DNA from: Candidatus Kapaibacterium sp.
GTDB lineage: Bacteria > Bacteroidota > Ignavibacteria > Kapaibacteriales > JAEUSM01
DNA length: 64,000 bases
NCBI GenBank assembly: GCA_016788785.1
Contig: JAEUSM010000007.1
Span: 124,001 to 188,000, forward strand
Direction: 5' to 3'
Below are positions 56,579 through 61,553 of the stretch, one piece after another. Below the pieces are notes generated by a model, which was given only the letters and a program-made list of their open reading frames with translations, did no database searches and was not told where the DNA came from. The first letter of the stretch is position 1; the number at the start of each line of letters is the position of its first letter. The position numbers and the translations under genes were made by a program.

Positions 56579-56643
56579 TGTATGTATACCTATTTAAAAT
56601 ATTACTGTAAAAATACCAACTTTTTTGCTAATAGACAAATTCT

Positions 56644-56669
56644 CACCCATTTTATCGTAAAAATGGGTG
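56644..56669 (-). terminator. Perfect 10-bp stem-loop after the COG2958 gene
   Basis: CACCCATTTT (56644-56653) pairs with AAAATGGGTG (56660-56669) across a 6-base loop, 25 bases after the stop at 56694. There is no T-run downstream on the minus strand, so it would be an atypical terminator, or a hairpin marking the edge of the defence-like group. Confidence 0.45.
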
Positions 56670-56693
56670 GTGGGATAGTAAGTGTTAGATAAT

Positions 56694-57755
56694 TTAGTCG
56701 ATTAATGCCTCATCAAAATCGTCCTTTTCAAATGGAATATTATATAGTTTGCAATGTTCAATAACTTCTTTATCTTCTTTAAACTGAGGGTCAAGACATT
56801 TTTTAAAATTTTCCATAAATATGTCTATATTTTCTGGTTTTGCACTTAACACTTTTAATAATGATGTTAAAATTGCATTTACATCATTATTTCCCATCAA
56901 CTTATCTATTGTGATTAAATCTAAATCCTTATATTTTGCTTCAAGCATGACAACACTTTCAAATGTATTTGGCTTTAGTTTAATAAAGCCAATTCCAAAA
57001 GATTGATTTAGTCTACTCATTTCGTTTAATAGTTTATTAGGAAAATCTAGCGCAACTAAATATCCATAATTTGCCCAACTTGAATTAGAAACTGCTTGAA
57101 AATATGCTTCTTTTAGTTCAACATCACTTCTAATTTCTTTTTTAATTTCAAAAGAATATAATTCAAAAAGGTGATCTTTGTAAAATGTTCGAATGAAATC
57201 ATTTGTTAACTGCTCTTTGTTTGCAAATTTAACTCCTATAATATCTGGATTTGTCCAAACTGATTTGTTATCTGAGGGATTTTTTCTGTGGTTTATAGTT
57301 TTTGTTTCAATATCTCTAGACTTTTTTAGAAATGCACTTAATAATTTATGCAAATGCTCTTCTAGATAAGAAGCTTCTGAAGAGGTTGAACTTTTATTAG
57401 ATTTTAAATAATTTTCAGATTGAAAATTATCTCTATTTAAAAATATCTCTTCCGAATTTTCAATTCCTGAATTTTGAATATTACTTTCTATTTGATTTGA
57501 TTGAGAACTAGTATCTGGTTGTATTAGATTTTCATGTTTTGTTAGATAGTATAGATATCTATTTCTTCGTATCCTACTTACTCTTACATCTCCGACTCTT
57601 ATAAAAGTACCTAATACTGAATTAATTGAAATTTCATTTACTCTATAACTTCCATCTAACAATTTATTACTTACGATATAATTGAAAACTTCTACATAAT
57701 CACTTGGTATCTTCAATTCATCCAAACTTTTCAATACTGCTTCTTTTAAACTCAT
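56694..57755 (-). CDS. COG2958-family protein: HARE-HTH-like winged helix plus PD-(D/E)XK-like domain
   Basis: The ATG at 57755 gives 353 residues and matches the COG2958 start MSLKEAVLKSLDEL; an in-frame GTG three codons upstream is less likely. Residues about 1-80 form a winged-helix domain like HARE-HTH (EVFNYIVSNKLLDG to VRVSRIRRNRYLYYLTK). A Ser/Asn-rich linker follows. Residues about 130-260 carry NPDIIGVKF and LYSFEIKKEI, the Pro-Asp and Glu-x-Lys of a PD-(D/E)XK-like nuclease core, then AYFQAVSNSSWANYGYLVA, the strongest family signature. COG2958 has no established function. The HARE-HTH fold was proposed to read modified DNA. It sits downstream of two DUF262 genes on the same strand. 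Confidence 0.82.
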   Translation of the reverse strand: MSLKEAVLKSLDELKIPSDYVEVFNYIVSNKLLDGSYRVNEISINSVLGTFIRVGDVRVSRIRRNRYLYYLTKHENLIQPDTSSQSNQIESNIQNSGIENSEEIFLNRDNFQSENYLKSNKSSTSSEASYLEEHLHKLLSAFLKKSRDIETKTINHRKNPSDNKSVWTNPDIIGVKFANKEQLTNDFIRTFYKDHLFELYSFEIKKEIRSDVELKEAYFQAVSNSSWANYGYLVALDFPNKLLNEMSRLNQSFGIGFIKLKPNTFESVVMLEAKYKDLDLITIDKLMGNNDVNAILTSLLKVLSAKPENIDIFMENFKKCLDPQFKEDKEVIEHCKLYNIPFEKDDFDEALID

Positions 57756-57760
57756 GTAGT

Positions 57761-57837
57761 ACACTTTAATAAAATATAGATTTTAAATATTCATTTTTTA
57801 TAACTAATATAATGTTTAGCCACAAAAACACTTTAAT
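57761..57837. repeat. Two identical 10-mers (ACACTTTAAT) upstream of the COG2958 gene
   Basis: 57761-57770 and 57828-57837 are perfect direct repeats, 57 bases apart, at both ends of the 84-base gap between the DUF262-HNH gene and the COG2958 gene. They could be regulator sites, but AT-rich DNA makes chance repeats common. Confidence 0.3.
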
Positions 57838-57839
57838 TT

Positions 57840-60437
57840 TCAATAACTAGAACCTTTTTCACGATTTTCGCTTTTATGAAGAATTTGCATATTTGAAATG
57901 TCGTCTTTCCCGCCTATTGATATTGGAATGATGTGATCTACTTCTATTTCATCACCTTTAAAAATAGTAGATCCTGTCATTGGACTCAAACTATTTTGTG
58001 ATTTTAGAAGTTCAAATTTTTGTTGATCTGTTAAAGTAGTTTGACGTTGAGTTAATTTGTATTTGAGTAAGAACTCATCTCTTAAAAGATTATACTTCTC
58101 TAGACCCAAATTATTACTCTGATCATCTAACGGAATATTCTTCAAATATTTAAAAATAGATTTTACATCTTGTTTTATCTCAAGTCTATGATACCTAACC
58201 ATTTCTAAGTTAAGTTTTGTAATTAAATGCCACAAGAAATAAAAATCCTGCATAGTTCTTCTAACATATTTAACTTCCTTACCTCCACTAAAAACTGAAT
58301 CTAATTCACTTTTCAGGTATTCCTTTAACTCATTTTCTTCTTTATCACAATCTAATAAAATCAATTTTAACTTACCAATGAAAGCTTTTATATTCTTTAC
58401 AGCAGTTTCATAATTATCAAATACTTCATTTTGTTTTTCAGTAAGATTGTTCAATAAATTGGTTATGTTTACCTTATCACTAATTCTAGAATTTAATCTA
58501 TCAGATTTCTGATGAATGTCAAATATCTTTCTATCGTTTTTTGACAAAGCATTATATTCAAGAAATATTAAAGAAGTAACTAGCTCTTCATTTTCCATTC
58601 TATCAATATCATGTTTACTGCTAATTCTCTTTACAAAAAACCATGATTCATAATTAGATTTTATTTTTCTTATCTGATTAATTATATCTACATCTACCCA
58701 AGAATTCCACATTTCAAATGTATTTTCTCTTATTGGAAAGGGTTTATCGTTAAGTCTAATAAATAAGTCAATAGGATTAAATTTTTCATTACTTAATTCA
58801 TCAATTTCTACTAAATAAAGCTGGAAATCAAAAATTTTGTCTTGTTGTTCGTTTTCTAATTGTTTAAATGATTTACCTTCTAATTCTTTAAGTATTTTCA
58901 TCCTCTTTAACTTAAATATGTGATTATTCGATGTTCTAAGTGTACCTCTCTCGTCTACATAGCTTTCACCAATAAAGCCTAAAATGGTAAGAAGTCTCTG
59001 TTGACCGTCAATTACTTCAAAAACACCATCTTTGCGCTTAAAGACAAAAATTGCAGGAAGTGTAATTCCTAACAAGATACTTTCAATGATTAAAGATGCT
59101 TTTGTTGGATTAATTACTTCTTTTCTTTGATATGATGGTCTAACTAAAAACTTTCTTCTATTCATAGATCTTACAACATCATCAATTGAAATTCTTGATG
59201 GTTCAGGTTTGTTTAATCTTAATGACTCAAGTTCACCTAATTTGGTTGAAGTGTCTTGCGGTTTTGTAATTTCTTTGATTTCTGATTTTTTATCATCATC
59301 GGGGGAAATATAAAGTGAAAAATCTGTTTGGTACTTTTGCTGAAAAAATTCTGCAGTTTTTAGAAATCTAGTCTTAACAATTTTGTTAAAACTGTAATCT
59401 ACTTCTGAATAATATTCTATATTTTTGTCTATAAAATGTGTAATATTAAATCTTAAATCTTCATCAAATGTATAGGGAATCTCCTCTAGCTCTAATAAAC
59501 CAAATCCCCAAAGAAAACATTCTAATGCAAGTCTATTACATGATAAACCAGTTCTTTCAGCATCTTGTTTTACTAAATATAAAAAATCAACTTTCCTGTA
59601 AAAGTTTTCAATAACAGATTGTGTTGTATTTTCATTTTCGTTTGAAATTTTTTCATACAATTTAGTAATAATATCTGTTCTACTTGCTCCACTTGCATAG
59701 TATGAAATAGGTGTCATTGGTAACACCAAACTTTTCCTGACAAAATTCATTACTTTATCTATAGGTTTATCATTACTTAACGTTGCTTTATAAATAAAAA
59801 ACGTTTGATAAAGTCTATCTAGTTTTTCATTGTTTTTTTGAAAATAGTCCTTAAATGCACTTGTTAAGTTGTCTTTGTCATAAATTGCATTTTCAATTTC
59901 AACATTTTTCAGAGGGGTTATTCCAGAATTATATCTAGAAAAAATTTCTTTCTTGATTCTATCTTCTAAATTTCTATCTAATGGTGGTTGGTTAACTAGT
60001 TTAAATTCAATAATTCTTAGTTTTGCTTCTAAAAATTTTGTTATGATTTCATTGTCTTTTTTATTTAAGTCTTCATAACTTAAGTTTTTCAATAGTCTTA
60101 ATACTTGAAGTCCTTTTTGTTTCAACTGAAATTCATTTTCCATAAATCTTTTTATGGTTTCAAATCGTTGTCTACCATCAATTATTTCAACACCTGAATT
60201 ATTATCAAAGAAAATAAGAGGAGGTATTTCTGTTCCAAGCAAAATACTTTCAATGAAGTAAGTTGCTTTACTATAATCCCAAACATAATTCCTTTGATAA
60301 TATGGCTTATAATCAATCCTACTTTTAGACCTTGGACTAAAAAGGCTATCTATAGATTTTGAATATGTTTCTACTTTTAAGTGTTCTTTAAACACCTTTT
60401 CAAACATTTCTTGAGTTGATTGATTTGAACTTATCAT
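57840..60437 (-). CDS. Tandem DUF262-DUF262 protein with C-terminal HNH nuclease domain
   Basis: An 865-residue protein with two DUF262 (ParB/Srx-like, GmrS-type) domains. The first (about 30-150) has YYQRNYVW and IIDGRQRFETI (86-96); the second (about 420-540) has SYQRKEV and VIDGQQRLLTI near residue 476. The spacing between the two motifs is nearly the same in both copies. The last 50 residues are an HNH nuclease (VDHIIPISIGG, then MQILHKSENREKG), lacking the usual zinc-binding cysteines. Related DUF262 proteins belong to type IV, modification-dependent restriction (GmrSD, BrxU). A tandem copy with HNH would bring two specificity domains into one chain. The function is inferred; the architecture is seen directly. 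Confidence 0.85.
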   Translation of the reverse strand: MISSNQSTQEMFEKVFKEHLKVETYSKSIDSLFSPRSKSRIDYKPYYQRNYVWDYSKATYFIESILLGTEIPPLIFFDNNSGVEIIDGRQRFETIKRFMENEFQLKQKGLQVLRLLKNLSYEDLNKKDNEIITKFLEAKLRIIEFKLVNQPPLDRNLEDRIKKEIFSRYNSGITPLKNVEIENAIYDKDNLTSAFKDYFQKNNEKLDRLYQTFFIYKATLSNDKPIDKVMNFVRKSLVLPMTPISYYASGASRTDIITKLYEKISNENENTTQSVIENFYRKVDFLYLVKQDAERTGLSCNRLALECFLWGFGLLELEEIPYTFDEDLRFNITHFIDKNIEYYSEVDYSFNKIVKTRFLKTAEFFQQKYQTDFSLYISPDDDKKSEIKEITKPQDTSTKLGELESLRLNKPEPSRISIDDVVRSMNRRKFLVRPSYQRKEVINPTKASLIIESILLGITLPAIFVFKRKDGVFEVIDGQQRLLTILGFIGESYVDERGTLRTSNNHIFKLKRMKILKELEGKSFKQLENEQQDKIFDFQLYLVEIDELSNEKFNPIDLFIRLNDKPFPIRENTFEMWNSWVDVDIINQIRKIKSNYESWFFVKRISSKHDIDRMENEELVTSLIFLEYNALSKNDRKIFDIHQKSDRLNSRISDKVNITNLLNNLTEKQNEVFDNYETAVKNIKAFIGKLKLILLDCDKEENELKEYLKSELDSVFSGGKEVKYVRRTMQDFYFLWHLITKLNLEMVRYHRLEIKQDVKSIFKYLKNIPLDDQSNNLGLEKYNLLRDEFLLKYKLTQRQTTLTDQQKFELLKSQNSLSPMTGSTIFKGDEIEVDHIIPISIGGKDDISNMQILHKSENREKGSSY

Positions 60438-60506
60438 AATTTACTAACATAAATGAAAACCATTGTTAGCAATTTACGGAATTTTTGTGAAATTCAATAG
60501 TGAATA

Positions 60507-61553
60507 TTAACTTTTTTGTTTGATATGAAAAAGTTTAAGTGTTGAAAGTTCTTCTTTCATAGGTTGAGAACCTTGCCAAAACTCATCATTTGGGTCTTGC
60601 AATGCCAAATATAAATCTGCAGTATCAAGTAAATCTCGTAAAAGTTGAAAAGTTTGTTCCTTGGAAGTAATTTCAAATCTAATCACCTTGAAAAGATTTC
60701 TTTTGGATACACTTTTGTGCGAACTATTCCAATAACAACGTAAAAAGTCTTCAAACTTTTTTTCACGCAATTTGTCAACAATTTTACCCCATAAATTTTC
60801 TAATTCATCTATTTCATTTTGGTGAGGAGAGGTATTGTCAACAATAGAGAAGAGGTAATTTTTTAATAAGTCTGAAGAAGATAATTGCACTCCACGTGCA
60901 TTTAAGGTTTCAAAAACTTTAAATGCATTAATTTGATTGCTGACTTTAATCACAGAGAAATACAATTTATCAACAATTTCGTCGATAAATCCTGCAAGGC
61001 TTTCGCCATTGGTAAATGTGTTTTCAACTTTCTTTAAATAAAATAGAAACGCCTCACGTAATTGCTTTTCAGAGTTGTTTCTATTTCGAGAAGGTTGTAC
61101 ATTTAAAAGAACTAAATATTGTCGGTAATAGAAATCACTGTTGCGATTAAGTTTTAGCTTGTTCTCAGAAATGAGCGTGACTGGATTGATGTAACCGATA
61201 TAACTATTAATCAGTGCTTGTTTTCTTTTTTGATTATTATCTGGGTCTATACCTTTTTCGCAAAGATTTTCTAATGACTTAATAACTGCTAAAATGATGA
61301 TGCTAATAGTAGTGAGTCTTTGTTGACCGTCAATTACTTGAAACACTTTGTTATCAGCTGTCTGCATTACCAAATACCCAAGATAATGCTCCTGTTCTTC
61401 ATTTCGAAGTAATACTAAAATATCTTCCCACAAATCCGACCATTGTTCTGAGTCCCAAGAATAATCTCTTTGAAACTTTGGAATCTCATAACGGATTCCA
61501 TTTCCCATTATCTGTCTAAAGGTAGAACTTGAAGTGTCAATTATTCCAGTCAT
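60507..61553 (-). CDS. GmrS-like DUF262 protein, C-terminally truncated
   Basis: A 348-residue protein with the DUF262 motifs PKFQRDYSW (25-33) and VIDGQQRLTTI (73-83) and the GmrS signature FETLNARGVQLSSSDLLKNYLF. Full-length members usually have 550-700 residues and end in a DUF1524 HNH domain. Here the frame ends in HIKQKS just after the conserved LxLFxxxQ segment, and nothing homologous follows in the 69 bases before the next gene. It therefore looks like a degraded or split GmrSD gene that keeps the nucleotide-binding half. It could still act with the HNH of the neighbouring gene. It starts 12 bases after the rhodanese-thioredoxin stop. Confidence 0.82.
   Translation of the reverse strand: MTGIIDTSSSTFRQIMGNGIRYEIPKFQRDYSWDSEQWSDLWEDILVLLRNEEQEHYLGYLVMQTADNKVFQVIDGQQRLTTISIIILAVIKSLENLCEKGIDPDNNQKRKQALINSYIGYINPVTLISENKLKLNRNSDFYYRQYLVLLNVQPSRNRNNSEKQLREAFLFYLKKVENTFTNGESLAGFIDEIVDKLYFSVIKVSNQINAFKVFETLNARGVQLSSSDLLKNYLFSIVDNTSPHQNEIDELENLWGKIVDKLREKKFEDFLRCYWNSSHKSVSKRNLFKVIRFEITSKEQTFQLLRDLLDTADLYLALQDPNDEFWQGSQPMKEELSTLKLFHIKQKS

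Follow-up and report, generated by a model that had tools for sequence, protein, structure and literature searches.

A single-chain tandem-DUF262–HNH protein beside an HrgA-like gene and a truncated GmrSD-family relic in Candidatus Kapaibacterium sp.

The window is the whole 64,000-nt stretch of a Candidatus Kapaibacterium sp. contig that was analysed. Towards its end it carries three genes, and all three open reading frames were recovered on the minus strand, as the initial annotation had described, with intergenic gaps of 75 bp and 69 bp. The features of the locus were as follows.

56694-57764, minus strand: gene 1 (HrgA/COG2958 family), an open reading frame of 356 aa from GTG
56694..57755, minus strand: gene 1 from its likely start, the in-frame ATG at 57755 used by homologs, 353 aa
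57840-60437, minus strand: gene 2 (tandem-DUF262-HNH), 865 aa, Pfam PF03235 twice and PF01844
Gene 2 residues, minus strand: DUF262-1, with motifs QR48-49, DGRQR 87-91 and FxxxN 166-170 (48 homologs)
Gene 2 residues, minus strand: DUF262-2, with motifs QR437-438, DGQQR 477-481 and FxxxN 559-563 (48 homologs)
57840..58012, minus strand: HNH end of gene 2, about residues 808-865, PF01844 and a structural match to the Cas9 HNH
60507-61553, minus strand: gene 3 (truncated GmrSD family), 348 aa, Pfam PF03235 once
56619-60508, no strand: low-GC block with genes 1 and 2, a probable inserted segment, 26.6% GC
56618-56627 and 60509-60518, no strand: 10-bp direct repeat AACTTTTTTG, one copy at each edge of the block

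Pfam searches of the flanks found ordinary genes (rhodanese/thioredoxin, DUF3098 and amidohydrolase), and the earlier impression of an inserted block among them was upheld for genes 1 and 2. The GC content of 26.6% in 56619-60508 compares with a 1-kb mean of 35.2% (sd 2.5) elsewhere in the window and is consistent with an insertion of these two genes, and gene 3, at 32%, was nearer to the surroundings than genes 1 and 2. The direct repeat AACTTTTTTG is suggestive only as a sign of insertion and may be due to chance, the probability of a shared word of this length between such edges being about 1.5%. For a comparison of the insertion site, the nearest searchable relatives were ones that share only the order with the genome of the window.

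Gene 3 contained one full GmrSD_N domain (PF03235, E 3e-39) and no nuclease domain in Pfam. Its intact relatives, up to 66% identical, are 559-573 aa long and carry the GmrSD_C/DUF1524 nuclease (PF07510) at 415-549, a domain missing from gene 3, where the alignment to the relatives stops at residue 346 (position 60516 of the window) and the reading frame ends at 348. Gene 3 is a relic, the 5′ part of an older GmrSD-family gene, and its truncation had been called correctly from the start. Because the third of the protein that bears PF07510 is missing, no GmrSD activity is expected of it. No remnant of the lost C-terminus was found in the whole window, which points to a replacement, or to an insertion accompanied by a deletion; a clean insertion was rejected on the same ground. 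The genome also holds another, intact GmrSD-type gene (G000:C11, L110:9340-11406), which encodes 688 aa with DUF262 and GmrSD_C.

Gene 1 matched no family in Pfam, PADLOC or NCBIfam. A single-sequence scan of the genome contigs also gave no match, so homologs were drawn from genomes of the phylum, viral contigs and plasmids; annotated phage genomes gave no match to gene 1. Plasmid proteins annotated as HrgA were found by tblastn (E 3e-18), their nuclease cores being 36-40% identical to that of gene 1. The AlphaFold model (mean pLDDT 82.7) consisted of a winged helix at residues 1-77 and a restriction-enzyme-like core. The winged helix matched Fur and Z-alpha (Z 8-10, with Fur at 10.2), and the core matched the type IIS enzyme PaqCI with a Z of 9.4 over 138 residues. 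A HARE-HTH match in Pfam was absent even at E 1, and the Fur-like modelled helix is compatible with a HARE-HTH. Five residues, E132, P170, D171, E203 and K205, were invariant in 33 homologs and correspond to a PD-(D/E)XK arrangement with E203-x-K205. By sequence similarity and predicted fold, gene 1 belongs to the HrgA family, with the same plan of a winged helix and a PD-(D/E)XK nuclease-like core. The view that COG2958 has no assigned role needs a qualification: the family does have some history, since in Helicobacter pylori HrgA received its name as a 'restriction endonuclease-replacing gene' (Ando 2002, in the citing statement of PMC4615327).

The recurrent neighbours of HrgA were type I restriction genes, and in plasmids and prophages HrgA often lay in a type I restriction-modification (RM) operon. 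On Proteus and Vibrio plasmids (L314:7650-8579 and L315:6644-7579) it was found between hsdS and hsdR, in the order hsdM-hsdS-hrgA-hsdR. In viral contigs, hsdR-, hsdS- and hsdM-like clusters lay upstream of HrgA in 18, 13 and 7 loci, respectively, their identity being assigned by size and sequence reading rather than by profile. The TgvAB system of V. cholerae sits in this same slot between hsdS and hsdR of a type I RM operon (PMC11411939, PMC12409362), which hints that the poorly understood HrgA is itself a complementary restriction factor. Plasmid and prophage HrgA often lies between hsdS and hsdR, whereas gene 1 adjoins a DUF262 gene. In two viral contigs an HrgA-family gene had a DUF262-DUF1524 gene of the GmrSD type immediately upstream (L191:7691-10972 and L221:7751-10597).

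In gene 2, Pfam recognised two stretches of GmrSD_N/DUF262 (PF03235, E 7e-30) and a C-terminal HNH domain (PF01844, E 1e-8). Together with the PF03235 domain of gene 3 and the restriction-enzyme-like core of gene 1, this agreed with the domain content first read from the locus and with the defence-type identity given to the genes. Both sets of motifs (QR, DG(Q/R)QR and FxxxN) were conserved across 48 homologs, and all aligned members of the family kept DGRQR in DUF262-1 and DGQQR in DUF262-2. The NTPase activity of DUF262-1 is uncertain because DGRQR replaces DGQQR there. The HNH residues D834, H835, N849, H854 and N858 were kept, so that intact catalytic residues were found in gene 2 as well as in gene 1. 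The zinc-binding cysteines of the HNH domain were lost in a Bacteroidota clade that includes gene 2, with the catalytic D/H/N residues staying in place, and were kept by the Bacillota, archaeal and Chloroflexota relatives. GmrSD_N, defined as a DUF262 domain with QR, DGQQR and FxxxN, was represented by PF03235 in genes 2 and 3, with the motifs present twice in gene 2. Pfam did not find PF07510 in gene 2, which carries a PF01844 HNH domain instead; its membership of GmrSD proper is therefore incomplete, the effector being of the PF01844 kind and not DUF1524.

The AlphaFold model of gene 2 had a mean pLDDT of 84.4 and a pTM of 0.47, so confidence in the predicted arrangement of the domains was modest. 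A Foldseek search with this model matched BrxU (E 3.6e-4), and a second structural alignment matched SspE (Z 8.3) and BrxU (Z 8.2) over DUF262-2 and beyond. ParB CTPase domains matched over DUF262-1, and Cas9 HNH domains matched residues 801-865 with Z up to 8.0 and an rmsd of 1.8. When the PDB was searched with sequence profiles of gene 1 and gene 2, no match was obtained.

A profile scan of genome contigs showed gene 2 to belong to a coherent family, with 79 loci in several archaea and in bacteria of many phyla, among them Bacteroidota, Ignavibacteriota, Cyanobacteriota, Bacillota, Chloroflexota and Pseudomonadota. Long forms of about 855-865 aa, some of them longer, ended in an HNH domain. 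Short forms of about 760-790 aa lacked the HNH and instead had an effector gene directly adjacent. The census of effectors gave a fused HNH in 38 loci, a downstream PIN_8 nuclease gene in 10, an upstream putAbiC/AbiP-like gene in 16 and an upstream protein of about 500 aa, here called U506, in 7. Short forms with sufficient context numbered 35, of which 33 adjoined a PIN_8, putAbiC or U506 gene, most within 50 bp, and two (L133 and L167) had no identified effector; six further loci of the family were cut off by contig ends and fall outside these 35. None of the 38 HNH forms had a separate PIN_8, putAbiC or U506 gene nearby. The 38 comprise 33 from a motif search and five that were reassigned, four of them (L115, L118, L120 and L182) by reading of the C-terminus or by profile coverage and L128, with a C-terminus that appears frameshifted, by its clade. 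Almost all members whose context could be read thus had exactly one effector, and the effector types excluded one another. The type of effector followed a tree built from the core only, with 4 changes compared to a shuffled mean of 28.8, in a tree of a quick kind that includes two long branches. Gene 2 was placed among the HNH forms, beside Chryseobacterium and another Bacteroidota member.

Apart from a few cyanobacterial genomes that are close relatives of one another, no neighbour was conserved around the HNH forms. Defence models in PADLOC were matched only here and there around 20 HNH-form loci, and the signal of a defence island consisted of scattered matches and was not strong. Some tandem-DUF262-HNH proteins carried extra domains (L102, L135, L148 and L182), either three N-terminal DUF4379 domains, which are treble-clef zinc fingers, or a C-terminal AlbA_2, a Schlafen domain. 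The N-terminal extension of L102 was considered as a fusion to HrgA, and this was rejected as it consists of three DUF4379 zinc fingers. U506 is a conserved Bacillota protein encoded directly upstream of short tandem-DUF262 genes (L151, L172, L176, L177, L179, L180 and L181). No relatives of it were found in Pfam, PADLOC, NCBIfam or the PDB, and its segments VCYLSGPEPxND and FDIVYIDACG resemble a Rossmann methyltransferase by eye only.

The initial annotation had proposed a single modification-dependent restriction system made up of all three genes: the HrgA-type protein would recognise or cut the DNA, and gene 2 would supply an NTP-linked nuclease. The shared strand, the short gaps, the common low-GC block of genes 1 and 2 and their intact catalytic residues are all in line with such a system, as are the GmrSD genes directly upstream of HrgA at 2/77 HrgA loci (L191 and L221), which are distant GmrSD genes and not the proposed trio. 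A survey of gene neighbourhoods had been set beforehand as the test, and no recurrent pairing of COG2958 with tandem DUF262-HNH was found. An HrgA-family gene occurred at none of the 79 gene 2-family loci in fetched flanks of up to 10 kb per side, and a gene 2-family member occurred at none of 81 HrgA-family loci (20 from Bacteroidota and 61 from viral contigs). The three-gene system is therefore not supported, as no neighbourhood was conserved across genomes, the outcome that the initial annotation had itself named as speaking against its proposal. The recurrent partners of HrgA were type I RM genes, the nuclease of gene 3 is lost, and the tandem protein, solitary elsewhere, has an HNH effector of its own and so requires no partner. 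A joint system of the three genes has thus been largely refuted and is very improbable.

The block could also be the wreck of several defence genes, of which remnants only are left and none functions as a system. This would fit the truncation of gene 3 and the fragmentation of several gene 2 relatives in other genomes (L125, L137 and L186), but neither gene 1 nor gene 2 is shortened and all of their catalytic motifs are intact, and we regard such decay as unlikely. Somewhat more room, though still on the doubtful side, is left for the view that gene 2 does not sense modified DNA but serves as a nuclease in housekeeping or regulation, or acts like a toxin in abortive infection. PIN_8 domains often have an RNase-type fold, and the PIN_8 and putAbiC effectors of the relatives are more readily reconciled with abortive infection than with direct restriction. 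However, the form with a fused HNH is structurally closest to the type IV enzymes BrxU and SspE. The patchy distribution across phyla, with 4 full-length or near-full-length relatives in 394 other genomes of the phylum, also argues against a housekeeping role.

The best explanation, with a probability of roughly 0.7, is that the locus combines one complete and self-contained defence-type nuclease, gene 2, with a DUF262 switch and an HNH effector; an independent HrgA-type nuclease gene, acquired together with gene 2 or next to it; and the 5′ fragment left over from an older GmrSD gene. Gene 1 is, in this explanation, a stand-alone gene next to gene 2. The two DUF262 domains would form a nucleotide-dependent core for sensing and switching, and the single effector would do the damage. 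The pair would be an NTP-binding and NTP-hydrolysing sensor of foreign DNA, probably DNA with modified bases, and the firing of both domains would be needed, as in TgvAB and GrwAB, before the HNH domain is released and nicks or cuts DNA. This working was proposed because one chain holds the same kinds of parts as TgvAB and GrwAB. By this analogy gene 2 most likely works as a TgvAB/GrwAB-like type IV restriction enzyme in a single polypeptide; we infer the defence role, the NTP hydrolysis, the kind of modification sensed and the cleavage of DNA.

For the family as a whole, the distribution of effectors suggests a portable sensor made of the two DUF262 domains, with DNA cleavage, a PIN nuclease or a membrane protein of the abortive-infection type as its possible outputs. 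We lean, with some reserve, towards reading the tandem-DUF262 core as a general phage-sensing switch of a modular immune family with CBASS-like logic and at least four effectors (a fused HNH, a PIN_8 nuclease, a putAbiC membrane protein and a methyltransferase-like protein). The family is widespread and apparently undescribed. It is unnamed in PADLOC (2023), Pfam and NCBIfam, and an incomplete literature search for DUF262 domains in tandem or in pairs yielded only TgvAB, GrwAB, BrxU and reviews, so a description elsewhere is possible.

Among known systems, NsnA, a component of the Menshen system, gave the highest-scoring PADLOC match to the core of gene 2 (198 bits), and PD-T4-2_A matched as well. 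NsnA and PD-T4-2_A resemble the gene 2 family in having DUF262 without DUF1524 and a separate effector (PMC10952713), whereas these profiles describe single-DUF262 proteins of about 360-385 aa. The Menshen partners NsnB and NsnC were not found by Pfam or PADLOC in the two neighbours of gene 2, which are HrgA-like and GmrSD-like; gene 2 shows NsnA-like similarity only, and its assignment to Menshen is not supported. GmrSD, BrxU and SspE, which include the best structural matches, share with gene 2 the DUF262 NTP-binding domain, a helical linker and a His-Me-finger nuclease. They differ in having one DUF262 and a DUF1524, whereas gene 2 has two DUF262 domains and no DUF1524. The architectures given in the text of PMC4619093, as far as that text covers them, name no tandem DUF262.

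The closest parallel lies in TgvAB and GrwAB, the GmrSD-like type IV systems of Vibrio cholerae. In TgvAB, protection depends on the DUF262 motifs in each of the two proteins and on the His-Me nuclease that one of them carries (PMC11411939). Likewise, in GrwAB a mutation in the NTP motif of either DUF262 protein abolishes protection and one His-Me nuclease cuts (PMC12137116). The number of domains and the motifs (two DUF262 with QR, DG(Q/R)QR and FxxxN, and one His-Me/HNH nuclease) are all found in the single chain of gene 2, but the nuclease belongs to a different family. TgvAB and GrwAB consist of two proteins and use DUF1524, whereas gene 2 unites its domains in a single chain and has an HNH of the PF01844 type, and among its relatives, unlike in those systems, the effector is swapped. 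The two-protein systems raise the question of why two DUF262 domains are needed, and a single chain that holds both, as gene 2 does, makes that need directly testable by point mutation.
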